Shown here: one piece after another, positions 3,520 to 32,359 of the stretch
Layout of the letters: each line of letters starts with the position of its first letter
Numbering within the stretch: the stretch's first letter is position 1
Made by a program: the position numbers and the translations under genes
Assembly (NCBI GenBank): GCA_020072925.1
Contig: JAIQGA010000062.1
Location: 1-32,359, forward strand
From: Terriglobia bacterium
GTDB lineage: Bacteria > Acidobacteriota > Terriglobia > UBA7540
Length of the DNA: 32,359 nucleotides
Reading direction: 5' to 3'
Notes under the pieces: model-generated
The model's input: the letters and a program-made list of their open reading frames with translations, nothing else
Told to the model about the DNA's origin: nothing
Database searches by the model: none

Positions 3520-3546
3520 CGGTGGATTGAGTTCGCCACAGAGCTG

Positions 3547-6262: not shown

Positions 6263-6277
6263 GGAAGCCGCAAGAGT

Positions 6278-7543: not shown

Positions 7544-7675
7544 CAAAGACCTCCTATAAAAGCTGGATTCGAATACTCGCTACGTAACTTTCAATAAAAT
7601 CCACCCCGTTCATAACCATATCGAGGCAAATATCATCGAACTTCCAACTTACCGCTGACGTGCCCGGGCGACTCT

Positions 7676-9085: not shown

Positions 9086-9192
9086 GGAAGTCTCAGAGTA
9101 CCCCCGTCGCCAATCTCGACCCATCTGCACCTGACGGAGTGTCGGGCGTTCTCGCCGATTTGTGTTTTCCGCGCATGTAATCTCCAGACCGG

Positions 9193-10086: not shown

Positions 10087-10088
10087 CT

Positions 10089-11003: not shown

Positions 11004-11095
11004 ATTGCCTCTCCGCCTTCTTGTGACGACTGACTTTCTAGCACATCCAGTACCACGGTGCTGAATGGACAAGATGCCCACCCAAGCGAGTCAGA

Positions 11096-13657: not shown

Positions 13658-13708
13658 ACTCTCGACAATTCCTTAAAAACCTGCGATGACAATTCGAACA
13701 AGACAACT

Positions 13709-15717: not shown

Positions 15718-15798
15718 CCCGACTCCTTGAGTGCCCTACCGTCTCTTCAAGCCAAGTCGATCCGGATGCGAAGCCCGCAACTCACTTGCCGAAATCCA

Positions 15799-15819
15799 AA
15801 ATGTCCACAATTGACATTT
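15799..15819. promoter_or_regulatory. Inverted repeat AAATGTC-N7-GACATTT, candidate operator
   Basis: Perfect 7-bp arms with a 7-bp spacer (CACAATT) lie in the 158-bp gap between the kinase-BON gene and TSUP copy 3, about 80 bp upstream of the TSUP start. The AT-rich symmetric arrangement is typical of a dimeric regulator site, so an internal promoter for the TSUP genes is plausible. The symmetry is seen; the regulator is unknown. The MarR protein encoded at 19253 is one candidate. Confidence 0.4.
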
Positions 15820-15875
15820 CTGAGATAAACTGCGGCGATAACAGGAAGGAAATCTGAATTTGCAGGCACAGGAAC

Positions 15876-16688
15876 TCAGACATGTACTTTGGAGCCGAGC
15901 CCGTCGAGATTGAGATCGGTCACGCCGGGGACTGACGAGGCGACATATCGGACTTCCTTGAGCTGCTCTGGAGCGGCCAACTGGCCAAGAATCGAAACAA
16001 CTCCCCTCTCTGCCTTCACCTCCACTTCCAAGTCGGAGGTTGGCCGGTTGAGAGCCAGTTTCGCCTTCACGGTGCTGGCCAACACGAAATCGTCCATCAA
16101 AGCCTGACACTCGGGCGTAAACTCAAAGCACTTCGATTGTCTGGCCATGGTAGAAACAACTTCACACGCATCTTGAATGGATACGTGTTCGAGATTAAGC
16201 ACGATATCGTAGAGGGAGGGATCTCCCCAATCCACGCCGTAAAGATAATGAGCCCACTTCCTTCTTTCCTGGTCCACCTTCTGAATGTAGGCAAGCGTCT
16301 GGGAGCGGTCCATCTTCAGCCGCTCCTGTGCCATTCGGATTCGAAACTCCAGCGGCGCGATGATTCGAACCCGCAGGACATGCGGGCCGCCCTTTAGCAG
16401 CAGGTGCCCGGCGTTTCCGTGGTAAACCGCCTTTCCTGTTCGCACCTCCTCGGCTAAGGCGGCCTGGATCAACGTCAAGTAGATGTACTTCTTGTGACTG
16501 AACCGGTCCAGGATTGATGGTGGTTTCAGGAGCGCGTCCATGAGTTCTTCCTGTGACACTCCCGACGCGGCAGCCCGCTCGACGATGGTATCGCGGTCAA
16601 CGCAGCGGAATCCCAGTTGTGCGGCAAGGCATTCGGCGAGCATCTTTCCCCCGCTGAAAGAACCCCTGGAAATCGTGATTACGGACAT
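15876..16688 (-). CDS. Cytidylate-kinase-like domain fused to a BON domain
   Basis: A 270-residue protein. Residues 1-185 match the cytidylate kinase-like family: VITISRGSFSGGKMLAECLA as nucleotide-binding loop, FRCVDRDTIVERAA, VYHGNAGHLLL, then RRKWAHYLYGVDWGDPSLYDIVLN. The P-loop ends GGKM, so the usual Ser/Thr after Lys is absent. Residues about 198-262 form a BON domain (ALMDDFVLASTVKAKL, EVKAERGVVSILG, VRYVASSVPGVTDL), a fold that binds phospholipid or other ligands. Such fused forms are not nucleotide-biosynthesis enzymes and may be sensory or regulatory kinases. It is the first gene of the minus-strand block leading into the TSUP, PEP-domain and sat genes. The ATG at 16688 has GGGGAGAA upstream. 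Confidence 0.8.
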   Translation of the reverse strand: MSVITISRGSFSGGKMLAECLAAQLGFRCVDRDTIVERAAASGVSQEELMDALLKPPSILDRFSHKKYIYLTLIQAALAEEVRTGKAVYHGNAGHLLLKGGPHVLRVRIIAPLEFRIRMAQERLKMDRSQTLAYIQKVDQERRKWAHYLYGVDWGDPSLYDIVLNLEHVSIQDACEVVSTMARQSKCFEFTPECQALMDDFVLASTVKAKLALNRPTSDLEVEVKAERGVVSILGQLAAPEQLKEVRYVASSVPGVTDLNLDGLGSKVHV

Positions 16689-17294
16689 GATTGTTCTCCC
16701 CTCTTAGGCCTCCAGAAGACGGAAGTCAGGAATGTCTCAGGCCGAATGCGAATGCTCTCCTCCAAGCAACCGAAAGAAAACCCACATGCCAAAAATCCGA
16801 GCAAAGCCTACCAAAGTCCAGGGATTGGTGCAATTAGTCTCAGCCTTCTGGTCCACAGAAGGAACGACCGTTCGACCTGTCCCTGTGAAGAATGGGTCAC
16901 GCGCCAATTCAAACGAGCAGGATTCGTTCCATATGATGAGTTCTGTGCTGTCCCGGCAAAGGGGCGTCCGTGAGGGGCGGGCCAAGTCCCCATGTTAGAC
17001 ATGAAGACCCAGACAACCCAGTCGCATTTCCCTCCCGTCCTCCGTTTGGTATGAAGCCTGCTGGAGTGAGGTGGAATTGGTGCGTCTACACGGAATTGCC
17101 AAGCCGCCTTCTGGAAGCTTGCCACGCCCACAGGGTGCGAATTGCTTTTATTCTTCGATTTAGGAAAGGTTGCCGGTTGGCTCCATCGACTTGCATCATT
17201 GGGAATAGCGGCACGCAATGCCTTTCGAAGAGAGAGTTTGGAGGGGCTTAGGACCTTCGGCTGGATCTGGAAGTCCACCTCAACAGGCAACAGA
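16689..17294. other. Divergent intergenic region, kinase-BON / porin
   Basis: About 600 bp with no credible gene; frames here on either strand have no family resemblance. It must carry the promoter of the large minus-strand block and that of the porin. A small palindrome CATGT-TAG-ACATG lies at 16991-17003 and could be an operator half-way between the genes. A TGGCAT-N5-TTTTC match on the minus strand lacks the -12 GC needed for sigma-54. No RNA gene was recognised. Confidence 0.45.
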
Positions 17295-18770
17295 ATGCGA
17301 TCGCTGCTGAGAAGTTTCCGCGGAAGTCGCGAACTCCTTCGACAGTGTCTGCGTGGGCTGGCGCGAGCTCTCCTGTTTCTTGCAACCATTCACGCGTGGT
17401 GTTTCCTCTGTGTCGCACAGGAGGGGCCGGTTGGTCGTCCGGCCTACGAACCGCTGCGACAAAATGAAGATTGGTCAGTGCTCGTGAACCCTGACGTGCT
17501 CAAGGAGACTGACCCTTTTGACCCTATGAAATATATCTCCCTCACAGACTCAGGTTCAATGTGGGTCAGCTTCGGTGGCCAGGTTCGCGAGCGCGTGGAG
17601 ATTTGGAACCAGTATAATTTTGGAGCGCCCGCCTCCGCTGTCCACAACGACGGTTTCCTCTTATCTCGCCTGATGCTGCACGCCGATTTGCACATGGGAT
17701 CGTACGTCCGGATCTTCTTGCAGGAGAAGAGCGCCTTCTCCACCCACCGCGCACTCATGGGCGGCCAGCAATCGTACGTGGATGAACTGGATGTGGAGCA
17801 AGCCTTTGTAGATGTGAAACTCCCCGTGTCCGACAATAGCCGGCTCACATTGCGTGCTGGCCAGCAGGAGCTCTCGTTTGGAAAAGAGCGCTTTGTTGGT
17901 GTGTCCGACTGGTCGAACCTGCGGCGGACCTGGGCTGGGTTTTCGGGCATCCTGGAGATAGGGAAGTCCGACCTTACCTTCTTCTGGGCAAGGCCCATCA
18001 GAGTCACGAAATACCACTTCAATCACCCTGATTCAGGGACACAGTTTTACGGCCTGCATTTTAACCACAGGCTTCCGCCCGCCTGGGGGACGGCGGAAAT
18101 GTATTGGTACGGATTGGACAACCGGCAGGCGACTTATAACGGCTCGAGTGGCCGGGAAAATCGCCATACCTTTGGCGGGCACAACGTCAATCAGATCGGC
18201 AAATCAGGGTTTGATTATGACCTGGGGGGAAGCCTCCAAGTCGGGTCGGTGGGTGCACACAGCATCTTGGCCTATGGGGCTGTCACCCAGTTAGGTTACA
18301 CAATTCGCAAGATCCGCAGTACCCCGCGCTTTTACGCGGGCTACGACTATGCGAGCGGCGGACGCCAGCGCGGAGGTGATGTCGGCACCTTCAATCTTCT
18401 GTTTCCGACTGCGCATGGCACCTTGGGCTATGCGGACATCGTGGGACGTCAAAACATGACTGACTTGAACGCTGGCGTGGCCTTCAACCCGGCGCGCAAG
18501 TGGCGGCTTCGCCTCGATGGGTACTCATTCTGGCGTGCGTCGGTCAATGACGCGCTGTACGACAAACGCGGCGCCGTAGTCCGTCAGGCTTTTCCCGGCT
18601 CCCCCCGAAAAACGGGCGATGAGCTGGATGCCACCGTGAGATACCAATTCGATCGCCATACCATCATCCAACTCGGGTACAGTCACTTCTTCCCTGGCAG
18701 GTTCCTAAAGCAATCCGGCCCTCATGAACCTGTGGACTTCATGTACAGTTCGCTGCAGTTCACCTTTTGA
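17295..18770 (+). CDS. Alginate-export-family outer-membrane beta-barrel protein
   Basis: A protein of about 491 residues. The start at 17295 (MRSLLRSFRG) is followed by a basic region and a hydrophobic signal segment (ARALLFLATIHAWCFLCVAQ), then a mature domain rich in alternating aromatic strands. Typical Alginate_exp (PF13372) features are seen: FGGQVRERVEIWNQYNF at the first strand, LRAGQQELSFGKERFVG, WSNLRRTWAGFSG, DLNAGVAFNPARKWRLRLDGYSFW, and a C-terminal strand ending in Phe, as needed for outer-membrane insertion. The family forms passive pores; substrates vary widely and alginate is not implied. It lies alone between the two sulfur blocks, divergent from the TSUP block, and could let sulfur anions or organic acids cross the outer membrane. 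It implies a diderm host. The ribosome site is weak, and a frame to 17142 is open. Confidence 0.8.
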   Translation: MRSLLRSFRGSRELLRQCLRGLARALLFLATIHAWCFLCVAQEGPVGRPAYEPLRQNEDWSVLVNPDVLKETDPFDPMKYISLTDSGSMWVSFGGQVRERVEIWNQYNFGAPASAVHNDGFLLSRLMLHADLHMGSYVRIFLQEKSAFSTHRALMGGQQSYVDELDVEQAFVDVKLPVSDNSRLTLRAGQQELSFGKERFVGVSDWSNLRRTWAGFSGILEIGKSDLTFFWARPIRVTKYHFNHPDSGTQFYGLHFNHRLPPAWGTAEMYWYGLDNRQATYNGSSGRENRHTFGGHNVNQIGKSGFDYDLGGSLQVGSVGAHSILAYGAVTQLGYTIRKIRSTPRFYAGYDYASGGRQRGGDVGTFNLLFPTAHGTLGYADIVGRQNMTDLNAGVAFNPARKWRLRLDGYSFWRASVNDALYDKRGAVVRQAFPGSPRKTGDELDATVRYQFDRHTIIQLGYSHFFPGRFLKQSGPHEPVDFMYSSLQFTF

Positions 18771-19252
18771 GTTTCCACCCGCACAACCAGTTCGTGATTC
18801 CGGTGCACGTATACGAGTGCTGGGGCGACCAAGTATCCGAATCCGTGTACGGAATCGTGCGCCGCTTATCCACGGTCGCGCAGCAGGAGGGACTCTCCGT
18901 CGGGTGACATTGCGCATGCCGGCCTCTGGACACCGGACTAAATATCGCTGCTTTGTGAGATTGCACGCAGGCGAGTTCGGATTGCCAGTCGTCAACCGCG
19001 AAATGGCCCCGCGCTAGCCTCGGATGTGCGCGTGGTCATCTCCGACCGTCAACCGAGTAAACAAAATTTGCTCGCAACCGTTCATGACAGATAATGTGTC
19101 CGACCATAACAGTTAACTATGGATTACATCGTGCAGGCGAAGTAGCACCGGGAAGCCCAACGAGGTCGTATGTGGCTAATTTGTCCTGGAGTCGCTGCGC
19201 GTAATCACCCTGCCCAACGAAGCGGGGCGTCACTAGGAGTTAGGATCGGATT
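18771..19252. other. Intergenic region upstream of the marR-apr-qmo-dsr operon
   Basis: About 480 bp without a recognisable gene. The first part has short symmetric elements (CGTATACG near 18809-18816; TCCGT-GT-ACGGA shortly after) but no T-run, so no clear terminator for the porin. The second part should hold the operon promoter. One weak -35/-10 pair is TTGCTC (19068-19073) and TAATGT (19092-19097) with 18 bp between. GACA-N7-TGTC spans 19086-19100 and the palindrome AGTTAACT lies at 19111-19118. Confidence 0.45.
19111..19118. promoter_or_regulatory. AGTTAACT palindrome, candidate MarR operator
   Basis: A perfect 8-bp palindrome flanked by CAT on the left and ATG on the right, about 135 bp before the marR start and just downstream of a weak promoter match. 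MarR proteins usually repress their own operon through AT-rich palindromes placed like this. Only the symmetry is seen; binding is a guess. Confidence 0.25.
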
Positions 19253-19855
19253 ATGACCGCCGAGCAAATCAAAGACTTCCTTGCCAGCGCCCGCGTCTTC
19301 GCCCGATCTGTCCGCGAAGTCGTCGAGGAGGAACTGGTGAGGGCGATGACGAGCGCACAAATCAGTTTCGCTCAACTCAGGTTGCTATTCCTGATTGCCC
19401 ACACCGAGGCGCCAACCATTGGGGACGTGGGCATCTTTCTAAGGATTAGTAAGGCGGGCGCAAGCAAGATCGTCGAGCAGTTGGTACGCCGGAAGTTGAT
19501 CGAGCGGGTTGAGATCGAAAACAACCGGCGTAGCCGGAAGCTGTTCCTGACGGAAGCCGGGCGCCAGCTCATGCACGATTATGAGGTAGCCCGGGACGCC
19601 TGGACGGCCAGGACCTTGGGCGACTACTCCGATGAAGAAATGCGTCATACGGCGGAGATCCTGGATCGGTTGTCAGCCACCATTGCCCGCCGCAGCAAGA
19701 CGTTCCGGGAGCCCTGCCTTCAATGTGAAACGTACTACCGAGAAAGTTGTCGGTTCCAGCAATTGTGCGGGTGTAGTTGCTACTATCAAACCCGCTTGGG
19801 CGACAAGCAAGGCATGAACTCTTCTGAAAGGTCTCATAAATCCGTAAGCAATTAA
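19253..19855 (+). CDS. MarR-family transcriptional regulator with C-terminal cysteine-rich tail
   Basis: A 200-residue protein. Residues 1-150 fold as a MarR winged helix: SFAQLRLLFLIAHTEAPTIGDV leads into the recognition helix region (RISKAGASKIVEQLVRRKLI), then the wing (ENNRRSRKLFLTEAGRQLM) and a dimerisation helix. Residues 155-176 hold six cysteines spaced C155-x2-C158-x7-C166-x5-C172-x-C174-x-C176, absent from ordinary MarR proteins, which could bind an Fe-S cluster or zinc, or react with sulfane sulfur. The ATG at 19253 follows GGAGTTAGGAT. The stop is 9 bp from aprB, so the regulator is very likely co-transcribed with apr, qmo and dsr and probably controls them. The ligand and whether it represses or activates are unknown. 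Confidence 0.85.
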   Translation: MTAEQIKDFLASARVFARSVREVVEEELVRAMTSAQISFAQLRLLFLIAHTEAPTIGDVGIFLRISKAGASKIVEQLVRRKLIERVEIENNRRSRKLFLTEAGRQLMHDYEVARDAWTARTLGDYSDEEMRHTAEILDRLSATIARRSKTFREPCLQCETYYRESCRFQQLCGCSCYYQTRLGDKQGMNSSERSHKSVSN

Positions 19856-19864
19856 GGAGGTCCG

Positions 19865-20305
19865 ATGCCAAGTTTCGTGAATCCTGAAAAGTGCGATGGG
19901 TGCAAGGCACTGGACAAGACGGCTTGCCAGTACATTTGCCCCAACGACTTGATGGTTTTGGACAAGGAGAAGATGAAGGCCTACAACCGCGATGTGTCGA
20001 TGTGCTGGGAGTGCTATAACTGTGTCAAGATTTGTCCCACCCAGGCCATTGAAGTCCGCGGTTATGCCGATTTCGTTCCACTGGGGGCTTCGGTGACGCC
20101 TTTGCGCTCTACCGATTCCATCATGTGGACCGTGAAGTTTCGTAACGGGACGCTCAAACGCTTCAAGTTCCCCATTCGCACCACTGCCGAAGGGACTGCC
20201 GTCCCGGATGGCGGTTTCGCCACGACGGAAAAACTCGACACGCCCGGCCTTTTCACTGAGCCTGCCTCGCTGGGTCTGCCAGAAGTTTTCACTTTGAAAA
20301 GATAG
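19865..20305 (+). CDS. aprB: Adenylylsulfate reductase, beta subunit
   Basis: A 146-residue iron-sulfur subunit that carries electrons between the quinone-linked Qmo complex and the FAD of AprA in APS reductase (APS + 2 e- to sulfite + AMP). Eight cysteines in the AprB pattern bind two [4Fe-4S] clusters: C10, C13, C21, C25 and C47, C50, C53, C57. The rest is the beta-rich region and the C-terminal arm that wraps AprA. The length is close to that of the archaeal protein and shorter than Desulfovibrio AprB. The ATG follows a perfect AAGGAGGT. It is second in the operon, 11 bp before aprA. Confidence 0.97.
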   Translation: MPSFVNPEKCDGCKALDKTACQYICPNDLMVLDKEKMKAYNRDVSMCWECYNCVKICPTQAIEVRGYADFVPLGASVTPLRSTDSIMWTVKFRNGTLKRFKFPIRTTAEGTAVPDGGFATTEKLDTPGLFTEPASLGLPEVFTLKR

Positions 20306-20316
20306 GGAGGATACCG

Positions 20317-22245
20317 ATGGCCAGTTTCGAAACTCAGATTGTTGAAACCGACTTGCTCATTCTGGGCGGCGGCATGGCCGCCTGCGGAGCGGCGGTGGAA
20401 GCGGCTTACTGGGCCAAGCAGCACGGGCTGAAGGTCACCCTCGTGGACAAGGCTGCCGTGGACCGGTCCGGTGCCGTGGCCATGGGCCTCTCCGCCATCA
20501 ACCAGTACGTCGGCCTGAAGGACGGCGTCAACACTGTGAAAGACTACGTTGACTATGTAAGAAATGATTTGATGGGAATTACCCGCGAAGATCTGGTGGC
20601 CAACATCGCCCGGCACGTCGACTCCACCGTGCACCTGTACGAAAAGTGGGGCCTGCCCATTTGGAAGGATGAAAAGGGCAACTACGTTCACGAGGGCCGT
20701 TGGCAGCTCATGATCAACGGGGAGTCCTACAAGGTGGTGGTCGCGGAAGCGGCCAAGAACGCACTGCTGCAAGATGGTGTCGGCCAGATTTTCGAGCGGG
20801 TCTTCATCGTCGGGCCGCTGATGGACGGAGACCGCTGTGCCGGTGCGGTGGGCTTCTCGGTCCGGGAGAACAAATTCTTCGTCTTCAAATCGAAGGCCAC
20901 GCTCGTGGCGATGGGCGGCGCCGTGCACGTGTTCAAGCCCCGCAGTTCGGGCGAAGGCATGGGCCGCGCCTGGTATCCACCCTGGAACTCCGGTTCCTCT
21001 GCCTTCTTCACGATCCGCGCCGGGGCGGAGATGACCTGCCAGGAAGTGCGCTTTATCCCCGTGCGCTTCAAGGATGCGTACGGTCCGGTGGGCGCCTGGT
21101 TCCTGCTCTTCAAGTCCCGCGCCACCAACTCCCAGGGTGGCGACTACATGGTGGAGCGCAGGCCCGAGCTGGAAAAATGGGGTCCCTACGGCAGGGTGAA
21201 ACCCGTTCCCGCCAACCTGCGCAACTATCTCGGCATGCTGGATGTGATGGAAGGCAAGGGCCCCATCTACATGCGGACCGAGGAAGCCATCCAGAAGATC
21301 GCCGACACGTGCAAGGACGATCCCAAGGCTTACAAGAAAAAGATGAAAGATCTCGAGTCCGAGGCCTGGGAAGACTTCCTGGATATGACTATCTCGCAGG
21401 CTATCCTCTGGGCTTCCACTAATCTTCAGCCCGAGGACCGCAGTTCCGAGATCGCTGCCGCGGAACCCTACTTCATCGGCTCGCATTCCGGCGCTTCCGG
21501 CGCTTGGGTGAGCGGCCCCGAGGACTTGCAGACGGACGAGACGAAGTCGGATTACTTTTGGGGCTACACGAACATGTCCACGGTGAAGGGCTTGTTCTGC
21601 GCGGGTGATGCTTCCGGCGCTTCCAGCCACAAATTCTCTTCCGGCTCCCACGCCGAGGGCCGCATCGCCGCCAAGTCCGCCATCAAGTTCATCGTGGAAA
21701 ACAACTCCATGCCTGAGCTGGATGCGGCGAAGGTGGAGAGTCTGAAAGCTGAGATCCTCAAGCCTCTCGACACCTTCGAGCAGCACAAGAACGCCACGAC
21801 TGATCCGGAGATCAATCCCAACTACATCAAACCGCGAATGTTCATGTTCCGACTCCAAAAGATCATGGATGAGTACGCTGGCGGAATCACGGCCCAGTTC
21901 ACAACCAACGGGTCCTTGCTGAATAAAGCGCTGGAGTTGCTCGGTCTCCTACGAGAGGACTCCGAGAAGCTTGCCGCTGCCAACCTGCACGAACTCATGC
22001 GGTGCTGGGAAAACACTCACCGCCTGTGGCAGGCGGAGGCGCACGTGCGGACAGTGCTGTTCCGAGAAGAAACGCGTTGGCCTGGTTATTACTTCCGTTC
22101 TGACAAGCCGGGTCTCGACGAAGAGAAGTGGCATGTGTTCGCCAACTGCCGTTTCGATCCCCAAAAGAATTCCTGGGAGATGCGAACACGGCCGATCAAA
22201 CATGTCTTCGGACAGCGCCAGGAGCCCGCGAAGGCGGCTGCGTAG
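20317..22245 (+). CDS. aprA: Adenylylsulfate reductase, alpha subunit (FAD)
   Basis: A 642-residue catalytic subunit of dissimilatory APS reductase, in the fumarate-reductase/succinate-dehydrogenase flavoprotein superfamily, located in the cytoplasm. The N-terminal FAD-binding fold reads [18 protein letters not shown], then [20 protein letters not shown]; further conserved stretches are [38 protein letters not shown] and, near residue 430, [20 protein letters not shown]. The C-terminal helical domain ends near HVFGQRQEP. Length and order match AprA of sulfate reducers and reverse-Apr oxidisers. The ATG follows GGGAGGAT. Co-occurrence with qmoABC rather than aprM favours, but does not prove, the reductive direction. 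Confidence 0.98.
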
Positions 22246-22312: not shown

Positions 22313-22603
22313 ATGAAGTTATGTGACGAGCTGAAATGCCCCCACTGCCAGGTGCCCATGGTTCGCTGGGCCAACCCCAGTGGAGTGAGCTGGAGCAGTG
22401 AATTTCAGTATGTCTGTTTCAACGATGATTGCCCCTATTTCGTACGCGGCTGGACCTGGATGCAAGAGCACTATAACGTGACGGCGTCCTACCGGCATCG
22501 GCTCGATCCCACGACTGGCGAGTGCGGCCCGCTTGCCGTCTGGTCGAAGGAAGCGCTTAGATCTAACATCCTCGAGAGCAAAGAGAAGCCTACCCATGTC
22601 TGA
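22313..22603 (+). CDS. Small zinc-ribbon (Ogr/Delta-like) protein in the apr-qmo operon
   Basis: A 96-residue protein beginning [19 protein letters not shown], with two further cysteines in [13 protein letters not shown], giving CPHC followed about 26 residues later by C-x4-C: a zinc-ribbon or Ogr/Delta-type finger. The rest is aromatic-rich ([26 protein letters not shown]) with no enzymatic motif. It follows aprA by 67 bp and its last 8 bp overlap the next gene (ATGTCTGA). Position inside the apr-qmo operon suggests a maturation, assembly or regulatory role for the Fe-S complexes. No clear ribosome site precedes the ATG. Function unknown. Confidence 0.75.
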
Positions 22604-23429
22604 CCAGAATCCTACAGCGAAGAGCATTCTCCAGGATTTCCCGAGGATGACGTCTGGCGATCAGTTCGTCTTCCGATGCGGACGCGACCTGGATTGTTTC
22701 ACGACGTGTTGCCATGATGTTTCTATCGTGCTCACCCCTTACGACGTCCTGCGGCTGAAGAAAGCCCTGGGCTTGGACTCCAGCGAATTCCTCGAGCGCT
22801 ACACGCTACCCCTGCTCAATGCGGAACAGAAATTTCCGTTGGTCATTCTGCGCATGGATCCCGAAACAAAGAAGTGTCCGTTCGTCTCCGAGCGGGGTTG
22901 TGGAGTGTACGGCGACCGCCCCTGGGCTTGCCGGATGTACCCCTTGGGAGTGGCCACGCCCAAGCAGGCCACGCCGGCGGACCAACCCTTCCACTTTGTC
23001 TTGCGTGAGGATCTCTGCCACGGTCATGGCTGCGGAGGCGCGCGTTCACTGGGTGAGTGGCTTTCGGAGCAGGGCGTCGAAGAGTACGAAATGATGGCCG
23101 CGCCTTTCCAGGAAATCACGCTGCACGAATTCTGGGAGCGCGGGACGGCCCTCACCCCTGAGCAGGTTGCGATGTTTTACATGGCCTGCTACGACCTTGA
23201 CCGCTTCCGGCGCTTCGTCTTCGAGTCGCGTTTCCTCCAACTCTTCGAGGTGGATGAAGCCAGAATCGAGGCCCTCCGTAGCGACGATGAGGAGTTACTG
23301 GAGTTCGCGCTTCTGTGGCTGCGTTTCTGCATTTTCGGCGAGAAATCCATGAAGATGCGTGGAGCGGTTGTCGAAGCAAGGCGGCAGGCCGCTGCTGAGC
23401 CAGGAACCGTAGTTCCTCAGGAGAGCTGA
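22596..23429 (+). CDS. YkgJ-family cysteine-cluster protein
   Basis: A 277-residue protein. The N-terminal third has the YkgJ/CxxCxxCC-type metal cluster: [20 protein letters not shown], then [20 protein letters not shown] and [11 protein letters not shown]. The remainder is helical and aromatic-rich, ending in a charged tail. YkgJ-type proteins bind zinc or an Fe-S cluster; their functions are mostly unknown. The start at 22596 overlaps the upstream zinc-ribbon gene by 8 bp and the stop is 2 bp before the qmoA start, so it is made with the APS reductase and Qmo proteins. A role in assembly of, or electron transfer in, this pathway is a guess. The longer frame to 22533 lies within the upstream gene. 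Confidence 0.8.
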
Positions 23430-23431
23430 GT

Positions 23432-24718
23432 TTGTCCGTGCCATCTGCGCTTCCAACATTTCGAAACGGCAAGCCGGTCCTGGTGATCGGGGGCGGAATT
23501 GCCGGTTTGACCACTGCCCTTGAAGCGGCAGAGGTTGGCTGCCAGGTGATCCTTGCTGAGAAATCACCTGCACTCGGCGGACGCGTGGCGCGGATGCACC
23601 AGTATTTTCCCAAACTGTGTCCGCCGACATGCGGATTGGAGATCAACCTCCGGCGCCTGCGGGAGAATCCACGCATCACGGTGCTGACCCTGGCGGAGGC
23701 GGAGGAAATCCGCGGCGTGCCGGGGAACTACGAGGTCACTCTCCGGCTATCCCCACGGTTTGTTTCTGAGACATGCACGCTTTGTGGCGACTGCGCCCAG
23801 GCCTGTGCGGCGGAAAAACCGGACGAGTTCAACTACGGGCTCTCTAAAACCAAGGCCGCGTACTTGCCTTCCGGCAATGCCTACCCGGCGCGCTACGTGA
23901 TTGACCGGGCGGCCTGTCCGGAGGGGTGCAAGGCCTGCCAGGAAGCCTGCGCTTATGGATCCATCGACCTCAGTCAAAAGGTTGAACGAAAGACCATCCA
24001 GGTGGCGGCGGTCGTGGCTGCGACGGGTTGGGCGCCGTATGATGCCACGAAGATCGATTACCTCGGCTTTGGCAAGTATCCGAACGTGGTGACCAACGTC
24101 ATTCTGGAGCGTCTGGCGGCGCTCGATGGTCCTACCGCCGGCCGGATTCTGCGTCCCTCCGATGGCAAAGAGCCACAAACGGTGGCATTCGTTCAGTGCG
24201 CAGGCTCGCGCGATGATAACCACCTGCCGTATTGCTCCGCTGTGTGCTGTGCGGCTTCCATCAAGCAAGCCACATACATTCGAAAGCTCTACACGCAGGC
24301 GCAGATCACCATCTTCTACATCGACGTGCGAACCTTGGGGCGGCTTGAGGATTTCTATGCGTCGGTTGCGGCCGATCCGAAGATTGCTTTTGTTAAAGGT
24401 AAAGTCGGCGCGGTGGAACAGGATCCCGGCAATCACGATCTGCTGGTGACTGCCGAAGATATCCTCAGCGGGAAGAAGAAGACACAACGGTTTGATCTGG
24501 TTGTGTTGGCAACCGGGATAGTGCCACAGACCGACGGACTTCCGGCAGGTTTTGCGTTGGATGAGTTCAAATTTCTCAGCGTACCGGAGGGGCGCGCGGG
24601 ACTCTATAGTGCGGGCTGCGTCCACCGGCCGGAAGAAGTCTCGGCGGCTGTCCAGGATGCCACGGGAGCTGCTTTGAAAGCTCTCCAGTGTGTGTCCAGA
24701 AGTTCTCAACATGGATAG
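23432..24718 (+). CDS. qmoA: Quinone-interacting membrane-bound oxidoreductase subunit QmoA (HdrA-like)
   Basis: A 428-residue FAD protein of the HdrA family, cytoplasmic part of QmoABC, the electron donor complex of APS reductase. FAD-binding VLVIGGGIAGLTTALEAAEV lies near residue 16, then EKSPALGGRVARMHQYFPK with the conserved CPPTCGLE. Ferredoxin-like cysteines follow in CTLCGDCAQAC and CPEGCKACQEAC, and later FVQCAGSRD and LPYCSAVCC, HdrA-type motifs. The start is TTG at 23432 with AGGAG upstream; no in-frame ATG lies before the FAD motif. The stop overlaps the qmoB start by 8 bp. A GltD- or HdrA-only role is unlikely because qmoB and qmoC follow directly. Confidence 0.93.
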   Translation: MSVPSALPTFRNGKPVLVIGGGIAGLTTALEAAEVGCQVILAEKSPALGGRVARMHQYFPKLCPPTCGLEINLRRLRENPRITVLTLAEAEEIRGVPGNYEVTLRLSPRFVSETCTLCGDCAQACAAEKPDEFNYGLSKTKAAYLPSGNAYPARYVIDRAACPEGCKACQEACAYGSIDLSQKVERKTIQVAAVVAATGWAPYDATKIDYLGFGKYPNVVTNVILERLAALDGPTAGRILRPSDGKEPQTVAFVQCAGSRDDNHLPYCSAVCCAASIKQATYIRKLYTQAQITIFYIDVRTLGRLEDFYASVAADPKIAFVKGKVGAVEQDPGNHDLLVTAEDILSGKKKTQRFDLVVLATGIVPQTDGLPAGFALDEFKFLSVPEGRAGLYSAGCVHRPEEVSAAVQDATGAALKALQCVSRSSQHG

Positions 24719-26966
24719 GAAACTCGGCGTTTATATCTGTAGCGGATGCGGGATCGGCGAGTCAGTCGACACGGCGAAACTGGCCAACGTGGCGACGCGC
24801 GAGTTTAAGGCGCCTGTTTGCCGCGTTCATCCCTTCCTCTGCAGCAGCGAGGGCGTCGAAGCGATTCGGCAAGACATTGCGGCTGGCGCGGTGAACACTC
24901 TGGTCATTGCCGCCTGTTCCCCCCGGATGAAGACGGAGGCCTTCTCCTTTGACCATACCGCCGTAAGTGAACGCGTCAATCTCCGCGAGCAGGTTGCCTG
25001 GTGCCATAAACCCCAGGACGAAGATACGGAGATGCTCGCCGAGGACTGCTTGCGCGTTGGCATTGTCAAGGCGCAGAAGACGGAACTTCCCGAGCCTTTG
25101 TTGGAAACGATTTCGCGCAAGCTTTTGGTGGTGGGCGGGGGCCTCACGGGGATCACAGCAGCACTGGAAGGAGCGGAGGCCGGCTACGAGGTAGTGTTGG
25201 TGGAAAAGGAACCGCGCCTGGGCGGATTTGTGGCGACGCTCCGGAAGCGCTTTCCGACTGCGGCCCCTTATAACGAGCTCATGACCGATGGTATGGCCCG
25301 ACGGATCGAAGCAGTCAGCTACCATCCCCGCATACAAGTCCTAACTTCAGCGAAGGTCGCCCGCATCGAAGGCCAGCCCGGCCTGTTTGATGTCACTCTG
25401 CGGACCGAATCCGGGGAGTCCAGGGTCCGTGTGGGCGCTATCGTTCTGGCTACCGGATGGAAGCCCTACGATGCCACGCGGCTCGGCCATCTCGGTTATG
25501 GACTGAGCCCCGATGTAATCACCAACGTCGATCTGGAGAAAATGGCGGCGCAGGGATCGATCAAGCGTCCTTCCGACGGCCGGCCGGTCGAGAGCGTTCT
25601 CTTCATTCAGTGCGCAGGCTCGCGCGATAAGGAGCACCTTCCTTACTGCTCCACAGTGTGTTGCATGGCCACGCTCAAGCATGCCACGTATATCCGGGAG
25701 CAGAATTCCAGCGCTCAGGTTTATATCATCTACAAAGATATGCGCACACCTGGGCAATACGAACGCTTCTACGCCACAGTCCAGGCCCATCCGCTGAACT
25801 TTCTGACCCAGGGCGAAGTCACGAATGTGGAAAAGACCGCAGCGGGGAAACTCGCAGTCACGGTGAAGAGCACCCTGTTGGCGGAGACGATCACCCTGGA
25901 AGTGGACCTCGTCGTCCTGGCGACCGGGATGGTTCCCAACTCCGCGGATGGCGAAGCGATCCGGGCACTCGAAGATGCCGAGCGGGCGGCGGCCAAGGGG
26001 GAATCGGAAACCCAGCGCGCGGAGGCGGCGAAAAAGGTCGAAGAGCTCCGCAAGCACAAGGGCACCGAGATTCTGAACCTGACCTACCGACAGGGACCGG
26101 ACCTGCCGGTGCTCCGGCACGGCTTCCCTGATTCCCACTTCGTGTGCTTCCCGTATGAAACGCGGCGAACGGGCATCTACACGGCAGGAGCGGTGCGCGC
26201 GCCCATGGATTCACGCCAGGCGGCGGAAGACGCTTTGGGCGCCGCGCTGAAAGCGATTCAGTGTATCGAGTTGGCTTCGCAGGGTCGCGCCGTACATCCC
26301 CGGGCGGGTGACCTTTCGGTGCCCAGTTTTCTGCTGCAACGCTGCACGCAGTGCAAGCGGTGCACGGAAGAGTGTCCCTTTGGCGCGCTGGACGAGGACG
26401 CGAAGGGAACGCCGAAGCCCAATCCCTATCGCTGCCGGAGATGCGGCATTTGCATGGGCGCCTGCCCGGAGCGCATCGTCTCCTTCCGGAATTACTCTGT
26501 GGACATGATCGCTTCCATGATCAAGGCGATCGAGGTCCCGGAGGAAGACGAGGAGAAGTTCCGCGTCCTGGCATTTGTCTGCGAGAACGACGCTTACCCG
26601 GCGCTCGACATCGCGGGAATGAAACGGCGGCAGTACGACGCGAGCGTCAGGATCATTCCTTTGAGATGCCTGGGCTCCTTGAACATTGTTTGGATCGCGG
26701 ACGCCCTTTCGCGCGGCATCGATGGCGTCATGCTTATCGGATGCAAGTACGGCGATGATTATCAGTGCCACTTCATTCGTGGCAGCGAACTCGCACAGCG
26801 GCGGCTGGAGAACGTCAAGGAGACGTTGCAGCGGTTGCAACTCGAATCGGAACGACTTCAATTTGTGCAGTTGTCCATCAACGAAAGCGATACGTTGCCG
26901 ACACAGATTGACAACTTTGTAAACCGGGTACGCGAGCTGGGCCCGAATCCTTACAAGGGGCTTTAG
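24711..26966 (+). CDS. qmoB: Quinone-interacting membrane-bound oxidoreductase subunit QmoB (HdrA/MvhD-like)
   Basis: A 751-residue FAD/Fe-S protein. The N-terminal region has VYICSGCGIGESVD and AACSPRMKTEAF. The FAD fold starts at LLVVGGGLTGITAALEGAEA near 139, with EKEPRLGGFVA and later FIQCAGSRDKEHLPYCSTVCC. A charged helix-rich insertion (about residues 415-450) follows. Two [4Fe-4S] motifs, CTQCKRCTEECP and CRRCGICMGACP, lie near 545-590, and the C-terminal 120 residues form an MvhD/FlpD-like domain (AFVCENDAYPALDIAG, CLGSLNI, GCKYGDDYQC). Length is close to QmoB of Desulfovibrio. Start ATG 24711; qmoC follows after 12 bp. Confidence 0.95.
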   Translation: MDRKLGVYICSGCGIGESVDTAKLANVATREFKAPVCRVHPFLCSSEGVEAIRQDIAAGAVNTLVIAACSPRMKTEAFSFDHTAVSERVNLREQVAWCHKPQDEDTEMLAEDCLRVGIVKAQKTELPEPLLETISRKLLVVGGGLTGITAALEGAEAGYEVVLVEKEPRLGGFVATLRKRFPTAAPYNELMTDGMARRIEAVSYHPRIQVLTSAKVARIEGQPGLFDVTLRTESGESRVRVGAIVLATGWKPYDATRLGHLGYGLSPDVITNVDLEKMAAQGSIKRPSDGRPVESVLFIQCAGSRDKEHLPYCSTVCCMATLKHATYIREQNSSAQVYIIYKDMRTPGQYERFYATVQAHPLNFLTQGEVTNVEKTAAGKLAVTVKSTLLAETITLEVDLVVLATGMVPNSADGEAIRALEDAERAAAKGESETQRAEAAKKVEELRKHKGTEILNLTYRQGPDLPVLRHGFPDSHFVCFPYETRRTGIYTAGAVRAPMDSRQAAEDALGAALKAIQCIELASQGRAVHPRAGDLSVPSFLLQRCTQCKRCTEECPFGALDEDAKGTPKPNPYRCRRCGICMGACPERIVSFRNYSVDMIASMIKAIEVPEEDEEKFRVLAFVCENDAYPALDIAGMKRRQYDASVRIIPLRCLGSLNIVWIADALSRGIDGVMLIGCKYGDDYQCHFIRGSELAQRRLENVKETLQRLQLESERLQFVQLSINESDTLPTQIDNFVNRVRELGPNPYKGL

Positions 26967-26978
26967 GAGGAGCGCGAG

Positions 26979-28133
26979 GTGTCTGAAGCGGCGGTGATGC
27001 AACCCGACACGCAATTCATCCAGCGCGTGATGGCCTCGGGAGGCGGCGACCTGAAGAAATGCTATCAGTGCGCCACCTGCTCCGTGGCATGCGAGTTGTC
27101 GCCGGAGGAATCGCCCTTCCCGCGCCGGCAAATGATCCGCGCGCAGTGGGGGCTTAAACCGCAGTTGATGAGTGATCCTGCGCTCTGGCTTTGTCACAAT
27201 TGTGGTATTTGCACCACGCGCTGCCCGCGTGGCGCGCGGCCCGGTGATGTGCTCGGAGCGTTGAGGCGGGAGGCCATTCGACAATTCGCCTTCCCTCAAT
27301 TCATGGGCAGCCTGGTAGCAAGCCCCAAAGCGTTGCCACTTTTGTTTGCGCTCCCCACTTTGATCTTTCTGGCTATTGCCCACTGGGCTCCCAAAGGCCA
27401 GGTTACTCCGCACCTCGAATTCGCGAACGTGTTTCCGATTCCGATCCTGGAGGCGCTCTTCTTTACGGTCTCCGGATTCGTTCTGCTGGCCTTTGCGGTC
27501 GGGCTGGTCCGCTGCATTCGTACCATGAGGACGGGCGGCGCAACCGGGAAGATCATGCAGGGATTACTTCCCGCCCTGCGTCAAATCATGACGCACCAGC
27601 GTTTCTGGATGTGCGACGCACGGAACTGGTCTCTTGGCCACTTGCTCACGCTTTGGGGATTCGCGGGCCTCGCCGTGGTGGGCACGGTGGCAGGAATTGG
27701 CACGATGGCGGGCTTCCTTCACACCCCGTTGCCTTTGACGAACGGCCTGAAGCTTTTCGCCAACGCGAGCGCGGTGGTCATTCTTTGCGGTGGACTGATC
27801 CTGCTCGCGACACGCATGCAGGATCCCGTCAAGCGGGTCGGGAGCACTTACTTCGACTGGTTTTTCCTGGCCGTTCTGGTGGGCGTTGTGTTGACGGGAA
27901 TTATGGCGGAACTGACGCGCCTGGAACAGGCCGCGGCGGTGATGTACCCGGTGTACTTTGTTCATCTCGTGTTGATCTTTTCGCTTTTCCTGTACGCGCC
28001 TTATTCGAAGTTTGCGCACCTTGCTTATCGAACGGTGGCCATGGCCGCTGCCGGGCCGTGGACGCCGAAGCCTCAGGTTGCGGAGCGGGCGAGAGAGAGC
28101 TCCGCGGCCGGCGCTGTCACTACAACGCATTAG
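26979..28133 (+). CDS. qmoC: Quinone-interacting membrane-bound oxidoreductase subunit QmoC (HdrC/HdrE-like)
   Basis: A 384-residue fusion of an HdrC-like iron-sulfur domain and a cytochrome b membrane domain. The N-terminal cluster motifs are CYQCATCSVACELSPEE and CHNCGICTTRCPRGARP. Then come about six membrane helices, for example LLFALPTLIFLAIAHWA, GFAGLAVVGTVAGIGTMAGF and FLAVLVGVVLTGIMAEL, with histidines in WSLGHLLTLW and PVYFVHLVLIF as haem candidates. It oxidises (or reduces) menaquinone in the inner membrane and feeds QmoBA. The start is GTG at 26979 after TTAGGAGGAG. dsrA follows within about 30 bp, so apr-qmo and dsr are one transcriptional unit here rather than separate loci as in many sulfate reducers. 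Confidence 0.95.
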   Translation: MSEAAVMQPDTQFIQRVMASGGGDLKKCYQCATCSVACELSPEESPFPRRQMIRAQWGLKPQLMSDPALWLCHNCGICTTRCPRGARPGDVLGALRREAIRQFAFPQFMGSLVASPKALPLLFALPTLIFLAIAHWAPKGQVTPHLEFANVFPIPILEALFFTVSGFVLLAFAVGLVRCIRTMRTGGATGKIMQGLLPALRQIMTHQRFWMCDARNWSLGHLLTLWGFAGLAVVGTVAGIGTMAGFLHTPLPLTNGLKLFANASAVVILCGGLILLATRMQDPVKRVGSTYFDWFFLAVLVGVVLTGIMAELTRLEQAAAVMYPVYFVHLVLIFSLFLYAPYSKFAHLAYRTVAMAAAGPWTPKPQVAERARESSAAGAVTTTH

Positions 28134-28166
28134 GAGTTAGGGATTCATAATCAGGAGATGACTCAA

Positions 28167-29366
28167 ATGGGCGATGATACGAAGTCAAATACCAAGTTGT
28201 TGGACGAACTCGAAAAGGGACCCTGGCCGAGCTTCGTCACGGAAATGAAAAAGGCCGCGGAAACGAATCCAATGGCCAAGGACCTTCTAGGCCAGCTCGA
28301 ACTCTCCTACGAAGAGCGTATTGGGCACTGGAAACACGGCGGCATCGTTGGCGTGATGGGTTACGGAGGCGGGGTGATCGGCCGCTACAGTGACGTGCCG
28401 GAGAAATTCCCGAACGTGGCGCATTTCCACACTCTGCGCATCAATCACCCCTCGGGATGGTTCTATACCAGCGAGGCGTTGAGGAAACTGTGCGATATCT
28501 GGGAGCGCCATGGCTCCGGTCTCACCAATATGCACGGGTCCACGGGCGACATCATTTTCCTGGGTACCAAAACCAACGAACTGGAGCCGGTGTTCCAGGA
28601 GTTGACGCAGGCCGGGTTCGATCTCGGTGGGTCGGGTTCCGTACTGCGGACGCCCTCCTGCTGTGTCGGCCAGGCGCGTTGCGAGTGGGCCTGCTATGAC
28701 ACCATGGCGACCTGCGACAGCCTCACGCGGGCTTATCAGGATGAGATCCACCGCCCCGCCTTCCCGTATAAGTTCAAGATCAAGTGCAGCGGGTGCGCCA
28801 ATGATTGCGTGGCGGCGATCGCTCGCGCGGACCTCTCCGTCATCGGGACGTGGAAGGACGACATCCAGCAGGACGACGCGGCCGTGTCGGAATACGCTGC
28901 CGCGGGGCTCGACATTCAGAAGGATGTCTGCGATCACTGCCCCACGAAGTGCATGCAATGGGACGGCAAGAAGCTGGCCATCAACAACCGCGAATGCGTG
29001 CGCTGCATGCACTGCATCAACGTGATGCCCAAGGCGCTCAAGCCGGGGAAGGAGAAAGGCGCGACCCTCCTGATCGGCGCCAAGGCGCCCATCATGCAGG
29101 GCGCACTGCTTTCCTCGGTGCTCATTCCCTTTGTGCCGGCGGCGGAACTCCTGGACACCATCAAGGAACTGGTGTCCCGCATCTGGGATTTCTGGTCTGA
29201 GTACGGCAATAACCGCGAGCGGGTTGGCGAGCTGATACAGCGCATTGGCATGCCGGCTTTTCTGGACGCTATTGGCCTGGACCCTGTGCCGGAGATGGTC
29301 ACCGCGCCGCGCGACAACCCTTACATCTTTTTCCAGACGAAAGAGGATGGGCAGGAGACGAAATAA
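28167..29366 (+). CDS. dsrA: Dissimilatory sulfite reductase, alpha subunit
   Basis: A 399-residue subunit of the cytoplasmic alpha2beta2 sulfite reductase. The siroheme-coupled [4Fe-4S] cysteines are seen in [16 protein letters not shown] (C-x5-C) and [18 protein letters not shown] (C-x3-C), and the inserted ferredoxin domain in [12 protein letters not shown] with [18 protein letters not shown]. Substrate-binding basic residues are expected in the [15 protein letters not shown] and RTPSCC regions. An ATG at 28158 directly abuts AGGAG, which leaves no spacing, so the ATG at 28167 is preferred; the difference is three residues. Length is somewhat short of Desulfovibrio DsrA (about 437), similar to short forms elsewhere. 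Whether it belongs to the reductive or oxidative lineage needs a tree. Confidence 0.97.
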
Positions 29367-29382: not shown

Positions 29383-30462
29383 ATGTCAGAACCGGCGAAG
29401 CGAATTACCGATATCGGGCCACCGCCTTATGAGAAGTTTCTTCATCCCCTAATCAAGAAGAACTACGGGAAGTGGCTCTACCATGAGAGACCCGCGCCCG
29501 GCGTCCTCTGCCACATCTCCGAGACGGGGGACAAGCTCTATACCGTTCGGGCCGCCACACCCCGCCTCTTAAGCATCCAGACGATCCGCATGTTTGCCGA
29601 CCTGGCCGACAAGTATTCGGGTGGTTATCTCCGGTTTACCAGCCGCAACAATGTGGAGTTCCTGCTGGATAACCCGGACAACATCGAGCCCCTGAAGAAG
29701 GAGCTCCTTGCCGCCGGATTTCTGGTGGGTGGAACGAACAACTCCATCAGCAACATTGTCCACACTCAAGGCTGGATCCACTGCCACTCGGCGGCCACCG
29801 ATGCCTCCGGCATTGTTAAGGCGGTGATGGATGCTCTGCACGACCACTTCACCGAGTCAAAGCTGCCCGCCAAGCTGCGCATTGCGCTGGCCTGCTGCCT
29901 CAATATGTGCGGCGCGGTGCATTGCTCGGACATCGCCATTCTGGGCGTCCACCGCAAGCCCCCGAAAATCAAACGCGACGTGTTGTCGAAGGTCTGTGAG
30001 ATTCCCACGCTCATCTCTTCCTGTCCGACCGGCGCCATCCGGCCGGCGACATTCGAGGGCAAACCCTCCGTCGAGGTCATCGAAGAGCAATGCATGTATT
30101 GTGCGAACTGCTATACGGTCTGCCCCGCGATGACCCTCAATGACCCCGATAATGACGGGCTTTCCATATGGGTAGGCGGGAAAGTCAGCAACGCCCGCTC
30201 GGCGCCGCGGTTCTCCAAGCTGGCTGTTCCGTTCCTTCCCAACAATCCCCCGCGGTGGCCAGAGGTTGTGGACGCGGTCGTGAATATCGTGGACGTCTAT
30301 GCCCGCAACGCGCGGAAGTTCGAGCGGATGGGTGAATGGATCGACAGGATCGGCTGGCCCCGATTCTTCGAGTTAACCGGTATCGAGTTCACTCGTTACC
30401 ACATCGATGACTTCAAGCACGCGGGGACAACTTTCGCTCGTTCCGCGCACCTGAAGTTTTAG
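29383..30462 (+). CDS. dsrB: Dissimilatory sulfite reductase, beta subunit
   Basis: A 359-residue subunit that holds the catalytically active sirohaem site in DsrAB. Hallmarks: [13 protein letters not shown] near 85, [35 protein letters not shown] (cluster cysteines), CPTGAIRP and the ferredoxin motif [18 protein letters not shown], then [20 protein letters not shown] and the C-terminal SAHLKF. It converts sulfite stepwise to a DsrC-bound trisulfide, or the reverse. The ATG follows TAAGGAGAT; dsrA ends 16 bp before and dsrD begins 9 bp after. Nothing in the motifs is degenerate. Confidence 0.97.
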
Positions 30463-30471: not shown

Positions 30472-30723
30472 ATGGCGGTACCCCTCGAAACGCTGGTGGA
30501 AGAAATCTACAAGATGGTCGTGGACCTTCAAGGCAAGAAGAACGTGCGAGCGATGAGCCTGACGAAAGCGATGATCGATAAGTACGGCGCAGGCGAGGTC
30601 AACAAAGAAGATTGCAAGCATGCCATTCGTCAGCTCATCGACTCAGGCCGCTGTGTCTACGGCTATTACGGCGGGGAAAGCTTCATCACCATCCCTCGCA
30701 AGGAAGAAGCTGCTTCTGGATGA
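30472..30723 (+). CDS. dsrD: DsrD, winged-helix activator of sulfite reductase
   Basis: An 83-residue protein that begins with a helix (ETLVEEIYKMVVDLQGKKNVR), continues with AMSLTKAMIDKYGAGEV and ends with CVYGYYGGESFITIPRKEE, the order and length of DsrD (about 78 residues in Desulfovibrio). DsrD has a winged-helix fold and in sulfate reducers was shown to stimulate DsrAB activity allosterically rather than bind DNA. It is found mostly in organisms that reduce sulfite. The ATG has TAGGAGAA upstream and lies 9 bp after dsrB. It is followed by a 96-bp spacer with hairpins before dsrL. Confidence 0.93.
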   Translation: MAVPLETLVEEIYKMVVDLQGKKNVRAMSLTKAMIDKYGAGEVNKEDCKHAIRQLIDSGRCVYGYYGGESFITIPRKEEAASG

Positions 30724-30819: not shown

Positions 30820-32359
30820 ATGCCTTTTTTCAAGCAAGTGAAGAAACCGGTCATCAAGACGTCCACCGCTGGCGCCGAGGTCAGCTCCCTCCGGCCGCGG
30901 TATGTTGACAAGACTCCGCCGTGTATCGCCCAGTGTCCTAACGGCACCGACATCCGCGAGTGGCTGAACGTCATCGCTCAGGCGCAGGCCTATGGCCGCA
31001 CGAATGAACAGGCCTATCAAATGGCTTGGGAGAAGATCACCGATCGGAACCCCTTTCCGGCCGTGTGTGGCCGCGTCTGTCCACACCCTTGTGAGGACGC
31101 GTGCAACCGCAAGGACAAGGACGGGTCGGTGGCCATCAACGCCCTGGAAAGGTTTGTGGGGGATTTTGCCATCGCCAGGAAGTTGAAACTCTCCCGGCTC
31201 GGGGAAGTATCACGCTCCGAGAAGGTGGCGGTTGTGGGCGCCGGCCCCGCTGGTCTCTCGTGCGCTTACCAGCTCGCCCGGCGAGGATACCGGGTGATGG
31301 TGTTCGAAGCCTTCAGTCATGCGGGTGGGATGCTGCGCTACGGGATCCCTTGCTACCGCCTGCCACGCGAAGTCCTGGACGCGGAAATTCAGAATATCCT
31401 GGATTTGGGAGTAGAGCTGAAGTGCAGCTTCGTGGTCGGGAAAGACATCTCGCTCGAGCAATTGCGTCAGGGGTACCGGGCTGTCTTCGTGGGCATTGGC
31501 GCGCACAAAGGGCTGAAGTTGCGCGTGCCCGGCGAAGACGCGCCTAACGTTGTTACCGGGACCGGCTTCCTGAATAAGGTGAACAGCGGCGAAGAGGTTC
31601 AGGTCGGGAAGAAAGTGCTGGTCATCGGCGGTGGTGATACGGCCATCGACGCAGCCCGTGTGAGTCGGCGCTTGGGTGCGGATGTGACGATTCTGTACCG
31701 GCGGACTCGCGCGGAGATGCCAGCCATCAAGCCCGAGATCGAAGGCGCGCTGGAAGAGGGCGTCCGCATCGAGTTTCTGGCTGCGCCGGTCGAAGTCCTG
31801 CTCGAGAACGGGAAGGCGGTGGGAGCGCGGTGCATCCGCATGGAACTGGGCGCGCCCGACGCTTCCGGCCGGCCCCGACCCGTGCCCAAGCCCGGCACCG
31901 AATTTGATGTCGAGGCGACCGCGATCATCGCCGCCGTCAGCCAGGAGCCGGAGTTTGAAGGCTTGTCAAGTTTGCGGGAGAAGCCCGATTGGATCAAAGC
32001 CGACTCGTGGGGAACCACCCACCTGGAAGGAGTCTTCGCCGGGGGCGACGATATCGAGCTCGGACTTGTGACCACCGCGATTTCGCAAGGCCGCTTCGCC
32101 GCGGAGGCGATTGACGCCCATTTCCGCGGCGTGCCGCTTACAAAGCCGACGCCTCCGCCGACTATTACCTCCGAGCGCCTGAAACTCAATTGGTACCCGG
32201 CATCCGCCCGCCACGAACGGGCGCGGGTTCCTGCCGTGGACCGCAACATGGAGACGGAGATTGAATCCGGCCTCTCGGAGTCTGCGGCGATCGAAGAAGC
32301 CAAGCGTTGCATGTCTTGCGGAATGTGTATGGACTGCGAAAGTTGCTGGATGTATTGCA
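30820..32359 (+). CDS. dsrL: DsrL, NAD(P)H:acceptor oxidoreductase of the Dsr pathway, 3' end outside window
   Basis: The first 513 residues of an FAD/Fe-S protein of the glutamate-synthase small-subunit type. N-terminal cluster cysteines are CIAQC (35, 39) and CGRVCPHPCEDAC (83-95). The FAD fold is VAVVGAGPAGLSCAYQLARR at 136-155, and the NAD(P)H fold is VLVIGGGDTAIDAARVSRR with ILYRRTRAEMPA, whose arginines fit NADPH. GVFAGGDDIELGLVTTAI follows. The frame reaches the window edge in CMSCGMCMDCESCWMYC, a ferredoxin-like tail typical of DsrL and absent from GltD or NfnB. DsrL links the nucleotide pool to DsrAB; it was first shown in sulfur oxidisers, and a second type (DsrL-2) occurs in reducers. 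The ATG at 30820 follows GGACGGAAG. Placement behind dsrD suggests the DsrL-2 type. Confidence 0.93.
   Translation, partial: MPFFKQVKKPVIKTSTAGAEVSSLRPRYVDKTPPCIAQCPNGTDIREWLNVIAQAQAYGRTNEQAYQMAWEKITDRNPFPAVCGRVCPHPCEDACNRKDKDGSVAINALERFVGDFAIARKLKLSRLGEVSRSEKVAVVGAGPAGLSCAYQLARRGYRVMVFEAFSHAGGMLRYGIPCYRLPREVLDAEIQNILDLGVELKCSFVVGKDISLEQLRQGYRAVFVGIGAHKGLKLRVPGEDAPNVVTGTGFLNKVNSGEEVQVGKKVLVIGGGDTAIDAARVSRRLGADVTILYRRTRAEMPAIKPEIEGALEEGVRIEFLAAPVEVLLENGKAVGARCIRMELGAPDASGRPRPVPKPGTEFDVEATAIIAAVSQEPEFEGLSSLREKPDWIKADSWGTTHLEGVFAGGDDIELGLVTTAISQGRFAAEAIDAHFRGVPLTKPTPPPTITSERLKLNWYPASARHERARVPAVDRNMETEIESGLSESAAIEEAKRCMSCGMCMDCESCWMYC

Follow-up and report, generated by a model that had tools for sequence, protein, structure and literature searches.

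A MarR-type regulator with a conserved four-cysteine tail heads a probable apr-qmo-dsr operon in an acidobacterium and is a candidate anaerobic switch

We analysed a stretch of 32,359 nucleotides from a Terriglobia bacterium (contig JAIQGA010000062.1 of assembly GCA_020072925.1; hereafter the window), which carries genes for APS reduction, Qmo and sulfite reduction behind the gene of a MarR-type regulator. This gene, here marR, starts with ATG, encodes 200 amino acids and is single-copy in the source genome of 6.5 Mb. Its stop codon (ending at 19855) and the ATG of aprB (19865) lie 9 bp apart, exactly as the initial annotation had placed them, with a GGAGG ribosome site in between. The features of the locus are collected in Table 1.

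Table 1. Features of the marR-apr-qmo-dsr locus in the window
Feature	Position	Strand	Basis
Promoter/operator-like element GTCCGACCATAACAGTTAACTATGGATTACAT	19098..19129	+	Related to TCTTGC-N3-AA-N-aGTTnAccagGTtTAaanT upstream of relatives' marR
marR, tailed MarR regulator gene	19253..19855	+	Winged helix plus flanking helices (residues ~3-146); C-terminal Cys module 155-178
Cys module codons, C155-Y178	19715..19786	+	CxxC-x7-C-x9-C; C155, C158, C166, C176 invariant (45/45); C172, C174 lineage-specific
aprB	19865..20305	+	TIGR02060, 205 bits, over cut-off
aprA	20317..22245	+	TIGR02061, 906 bits, over cut-off
Small zinc-ribbon-like protein, aprA-qmoA interval	22313..22603	+	Homologues at equivalent position in related loci
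YkgJ-type CxxCxxCC protein, aprA-qmoA interval	22596..23429	+	PF03692, 3.3e-9; 10 loci
qmoA	23432..24718	+	FAD/Fer4 domains, position, synteny
qmoB (HdrA/FlpD type)	24690..26966	+	FlpD 2e-42, HdrA2 model match, synteny
qmoC	26979..28133	+	NF038018, over cut-off
dsrA	28158..29366	+	TIGR02064, over cut-off
dsrB	29383..30462	+	TIGR02066, over cut-off
Small protein at dsrD position	30472..30723	+	Position only
DsrL/GltD-like flavoprotein, cut by window end	30820..32358	+	Fer4_20, Pyr_redox_2

In nearly all the related operons of acidobacteria, aprA and qmoA are separated by the zinc-ribbon-like and YkgJ-type genes, whose products perhaps have a role in Apr/Qmo maturation. Neither Pfam nor NCBIfam assigns a family to the small protein at the dsrD position, whose homologues adjoin a DsrN-like gene in L040, L043 and L045. 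In the window marR is preceded by an alginate-export porin (17142-18770). Further upstream, a minus-strand cluster (1824-16688) contains sat (6281-7546, PF01747), a CbiA/DsrN-like amidase (7676-9130), an HdrD/DsrK-like protein (3547-5808), two TauE-type exporters (13709-14620 and 14599-15717) with a relative at 10089-11081, a PPDK-like protein (11096-13657) and a cytidylate-kinase-like protein with a BON domain (15876-16688).

The regulator was described in the initial annotation as an ordinary winged-helix MarR fold, and both profile matches and the predicted structure bear this out. The protein matched MarR_2 with an E-value of 7.5e-10 and passed the cut-offs of both MarR families (PF12802, 39.3 bits against 27; PF01047, 32.2 against 24.6). 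In the predicted monomer, residues 3-31, 101-122 and 127-146 form the long helices that flank the winged helix on both sides and make up the dimerisation region of MarR proteins. The full-length AlphaFold2 model has a standard MarR fold with a mean pLDDT of 84; blocks of the tail are moderately ordered (pLDDT 67-80), the extreme C-terminus is disordered, and the tail modelled by itself folds poorly (pLDDT 54.5). The 50 best PDB matches to the predicted structure were all MarR-type regulators. The MarR family (PF12802/PF01047), with YusO, MexR, FabT and ZitR/AdcR, thus has the same winged-helix fold over residues ~3-146 and likewise a gene at the presumed target operon, whereas the alignments of its solved members to the window protein stop at about residue 155 and none spans the CxxC-x7-C-x9-C tail. 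The AdcR family cut-off was not reached (NF038251, 24.5 bits against 175).

The tail of the window protein reads ...EPC155LQC158ETYYRESC166RFQQLC172GC174SC176YYQ. A single-sequence search recovered an orthologue with 75-76% identity in a genome of the same bacterial family (G019, locus L036) and further relatives at about 26-46% identity within the class and phylum. A subsequent scan of 85,000 species genomes brought the collection to 50 loci, of which 46 (L036-L081) were used, and 45 complete family sequences, including that of the window, were compared. All four cysteines of the general motif C155-x2-C158-x7-C166-x9-C176 are invariant in 45/45 sequences; R92, R93 and further residues of the winged helix are likewise unchanged. 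Since the cysteines persist down to 25% identity, the motif is not a product of chance. Only two proteins, that of the window and its G019 orthologue, have C172 and C174, and six cysteines were therefore rejected as a family motif. Hence the six-cysteine tail of the initial annotation holds, with the spacing given, for the window protein, but the general motif has four; likewise, among orthologues adjoining aprB it is C155, C158, C166 and C176 that are conserved, and not C172 and C174.

The resulting pattern, C-x2-C-x7-C-x9(11)-C, is present in all 45 complete members and defines what we call the Cys4-tailed MarR group. A family profile matched exactly one protein per genome in 11 genomes, with E-values from 1e-66 to 1e-86, and no other MarR at 1e-15, which indicates a sharply bounded group. 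A Pfam search with the tail returned no significant family, and in the open-access literature we found no MarR protein described with such a cysteine tail and none described at apr/dsr operons. Consistent with the earlier statement that no such member was known, we found no published description of the tail.

In a family tree computed without the tail residues, the window protein falls into one clade of 15 proteins with support of 100/96. Thirteen of these are encoded directly before aprB. For the fourteenth (G401) the marR contig ends within the tail and the aprB contig opens with the remainder, with a 45-nt overlap; for the fifteenth the contig ends within the tail. The gene thus directly precedes aprB in all 14 clade members with an assembled junction, and the chain aprB-aprA-(Zn-ribbon)-(YkgJ)-qmoABC-dsrAB runs on wherever the contig does. 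The aprB ATG overlaps the marR stop codon in 8 of the 13 loci measured, and the other gaps are 9-20 bp. These conserved junctions indicate that marR and apr-qmo-dsr very probably form one operon headed by marR, as had been suggested. On the other side of marR, most clade members carry a tetrapyrrole methylase fused to an O-methyltransferase dimerisation domain directly before it (L044:1970-3724; homologues in L038, L040, L041, L043, L045, L049, L052, L053 and L082).

How widespread is the regulator at apr loci? An aprB over the cut-off was present in 16 of 299 genomes of the class and 23 of 396 of the phylum, altogether 36 distinct genomes. A tailed MarR at apr was found in five (G000, G019, G263, G401 and G591), whereas the other 31 sampled acidobacterial genomes have other genes upstream of aprB. 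We therefore rejected a universal regulator of acidobacterial apr operons, and the pathway can evidently do without it. The AprBA tree is poorly resolved; on it the tailed loci are scattered and do not form one group (5 changes), which speaks against a single shared history of marR and aprBA and makes repeated gain, loss or transfer of marR likely. The regulator thus appears to be an optional addition to apr operons with more than one gain or loss in its history.

About one third of the tailed family lies at sulfur loci and about two thirds elsewhere, mostly at Hdr/[NiFe]-hydrogenase/Hyp loci. At eight loci the gene is located between the genes of the [NiFe]-hydrogenase large subunit/HycI protease and those of HypC/HypD, at ten it precedes HdrB/HdrA/HdrC, Etf and hydrogenase genes, at five it is near butyrate kinase, and at L042 it stands before a NapH/NapG-like ferredoxin gene; a few loci have no clear partner gene. 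QmoA and QmoB are themselves relatives of HdrA. By its neighbourhoods, the tailed family appears mostly tied to low-potential, oxygen-sensitive electron transfer. The initial annotation had considered an Fe-S cluster, oxygen or sulfane sulfur as the signal of a dedicated sulfur-pathway regulator, a proposal to be doubted if tailed homologues lay mostly outside sulfur loci. This is the case for the family but not for the clade of the window protein, and as a sulfur-specific sensor the tail is not borne out. The prevalence of Hdr, hydrogenase and Hyp loci among the other members argues that the tail, as an Fe-S or zinc thiolate site, probably senses redox state or oxygen and not a sulfur compound.

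Two neighbourhoods are recorded separately. Gemmatimonadota members (L065, L066, L068, L072 and L073) form a tight subclade whose neighbours are butyrate kinase, a Na+/H+ exchanger and a GGDEF protein; an obvious target in anaerobic metabolism is lacking there. In L046 the tailed marR directly follows a homologue of tetraether lipid synthase (Tes; 7989-9590, over the NCBIfam cut-off), which is itself preceded by a qmoC-like gene over its cut-off.

A sigma-70 consensus scan of window positions 18700-19300 gave no promoter, and the element in Table 1 came from comparing relatives. Twelve upstream regions were compared, one per group of near-copies. The motif TCTTGC-N3-AA-N-aGTTnAccagGTtTAaanT is common to all 12 and scored 171 against 82±4 for shuffles, although shared ancestry inflates such scores. 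Non-coding DNA next to proteins about 40% identical should, however, have diverged. The element resembles a sigma-70 promoter whose 17-bp spacer holds an inner inverted repeat, yAA-N3-TTr, represented in the window by TAA-CAG-TTA at 19107-19115; in L052 the element lies at 9909-9940. With a leave-one-out matrix applied to stretches of 3-32 kb, the element was the top-scoring site in 15 of 16 loci, and in 14 of these 15 it scored 11-25 nats, four of them with a near-copy kept in training. The window copy ranked first but is weak (9.6 against 8.0 for the runner-up), and the same search did not find the element in L036, the nearest orthologue of the window. A pattern scan of four related genomes, allowing up to three mismatches, returned the regulator's own promoter once or nothing, and no second site. 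We infer that the inner inverted repeat is a predicted MarR operator at marR's own promoter. Seven loci (L039, L041, L044, L045, L049, L052 and L053) share a second conserved patch immediately past the -10 box, for example TTTGATCAAAC or GAGTTGGTCAAAC, and this patch could represent another half of the operator. The lack of a second site in the four genomes, together with the synteny and the overlapping junctions, supports the earlier proposal of a dedicated apr-qmo-dsr regulator. It is from sequence that the MarR fold, the four invariant cysteines, the operon position, the clade synteny and the promoter element of the relatives are read.

Published expression data are available for two organisms of the collection. 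Ca. Sulfopaludibacter MAG_CO124 (L052) carries a clade orthologue; its metatranscriptomes show raised expression of every canonical sulfate-reduction gene but dsrJ under anoxia, with most of these genes silent under oxic conditions (PMC10564751). The words 'regulator' and 'operon' are absent from the main text of that paper. L053 belongs to SbA3, one of the peat MAGs SbA1-7, in which many sulfur genes were raised in anoxic microcosms (PMC6018796). Other regulators could cause such anoxic-only transcription. With relatives beside the same operon or hydrogenase genes, the tailed MarR is the best candidate for the anaerobic switch of these pathways.

Our main reading, to which we give a probability of slightly below one half, is that the protein is an autogenous MarR repressor of marR-aprBA-qmoABC-dsrAB that carries a Cys4 cofactor and releases DNA in anoxia. 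A dimeric protein would repress its own operon by binding the inverted repeat in the -35/-10 spacer of the marR promoter, and its C-terminal tail would be a Cys4 cofactor module, most likely with an oxygen-labile [4Fe-4S] cluster. When oxygen is present, apo or damaged protein would occupy the operator and block RNA polymerase. In anoxia the intact cluster would alter the dimer so that the DNA is released, and the enzymes of APS reduction, Qmo and sulfite reduction would be made only when they are able to work. DNA binding, cofactor identity, signal and direction of control are all what we infer here. Repression is suggested by the site between the two boxes, the autogenous location and the MarR membership. 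Four invariant cysteines without a conserved histidine point to a Cys4 site, and we are fairly confident that the tail holds a metal or a cluster; for Fe-S instead of zinc our preference is mild. An oxygen-labile [4Fe-4S] cluster is favoured by the oxygen sensitivity of the target enzymes and by the anoxic-only transcription; its loss would strengthen DNA binding, a polarity that is our guess.

The four invariant cysteines, which include one CxxC knuckle, could equally hold zinc. The tail would then be a Zn(Cys)4 site of structural or redox function in an ordinary MarR repressor for a small ligand or thiol oxidation, with the zinc stabilising the dimer or acting as a thiol switch. Single tails do give faint, non-significant matches to zinc-finger models (E 0.04-0.5), and the Zn-responsive MarR proteins AdcR and ZitR are among the structural and sequence matches. 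To our knowledge, however, the zinc sites of AdcR and ZitR do not lie in a tail of this kind, and the neighbourhoods of the tailed family are Fe-S-rich anaerobic systems and not zinc homeostasis, which leaves zinc a possible but doubtful reading. It is improbable, in our judgement, that the cysteines instead sense sulfane sulfur or persulfide from the pathway and thereby derepress the operon. Known switches for this signal use one or two reactive cysteines and not four invariant ones, and the four are equally invariant at hydrogenase and Hdr loci without nearby apr or dsr genes. These hydrogenase-linked relatives make the idea less favoured, though it is not exotic: the context is a sulfur operon, such a switch could be built from the two extra cysteines of the window lineage, sulfane-sulfur-sensing MarR proteins such as MexR and MgrA are published (PMC11211675), and the ArsR-type sulfane-sulfur repressors SoxR and sHdrR govern sulfur oxidation (PMC10451225, PMC12423496). 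SoxR and sHdrR are likewise dedicated, cysteine-containing repressors of a dissimilatory sulfur pathway; they differ from the window protein, with its MarR fold and a tail common to non-sulfur loci, in their ArsR family, oxidative pathway and sulfane-sulfur signal. MexR, MgrA and E. coli MarR (PMC11211675, PMC8614764) have the MarR fold with reactive cysteines as here, but lack the Cys4 tail, and their targets are mostly drug-resistance genes.

A cluster in the tail might also respond to nitric oxide and not to oxygen, as in ArnR of Corynebacterium glutamicum, which combines a MarR/ArsR-like winged helix with a C-terminal [4Fe-4S] site that is NO-responsive and nearly O2-stable (PMC12343034). 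ArnR, a dimer controlling an anaerobic (nitrate) respiration operon (PMC12343034), is the nearest functional analogue of the window protein, and the NapH/NapG-like gene downstream of the L042 member fits such a signal. ArnR has three widely spaced cysteines, however (Cys179/193/223, across 45 residues), in a C-terminal domain of its own (PMC12343034), whereas the window tail has spacings of 2/7/9 within 22 residues; by cysteine spacing and C-terminal domain the window protein falls outside the ArnR family, and we regard the likeness as one of plan, without claiming membership. Among the annotated genes near the tailed members we saw none for NO detoxification, and we consider an NO signal very unlikely. 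The MarR-type sulfane-sulfur sensors and ArnR qualify the earlier view that known regulators in this area are of other kinds.

Rex, a repressor of sulfate-reduction genes in Desulfovibrio, exerts redox control over these genes, as proposed here for the tailed MarR, but it is a sensor of NADH/NAD with a different fold. More tentatively than for the window operon, the tailed proteins may constitute an undescribed class of Fe-S MarR sensors that act as the local anaerobic switch for HdrA-type modules (Hdr-[NiFe] hydrogenase and Apr-Qmo-Dsr) in Acidobacteriota, Gemmatimonadota, Latescibacterota, Eisenbacteria and Actinomycetota, and that would turn on sulfate respiration at O2 depletion in facultative sulfate-reducing Acidobacteriota. 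In at least one acidobacterium capable of both oxygen respiration and sulfate reduction, the latter pathway is switched on solely under anoxia, and an operon-heading gene with a Cys4 tail and hydrogenase/Hdr relatives is a concrete and cheaply testable candidate for the switch. Should an oxygen-labile cluster be bound there, the tail would represent a new architecture within the MarR family and a marker that predicts oxygen-controlled anaerobic respiration in uncultured bacteria.
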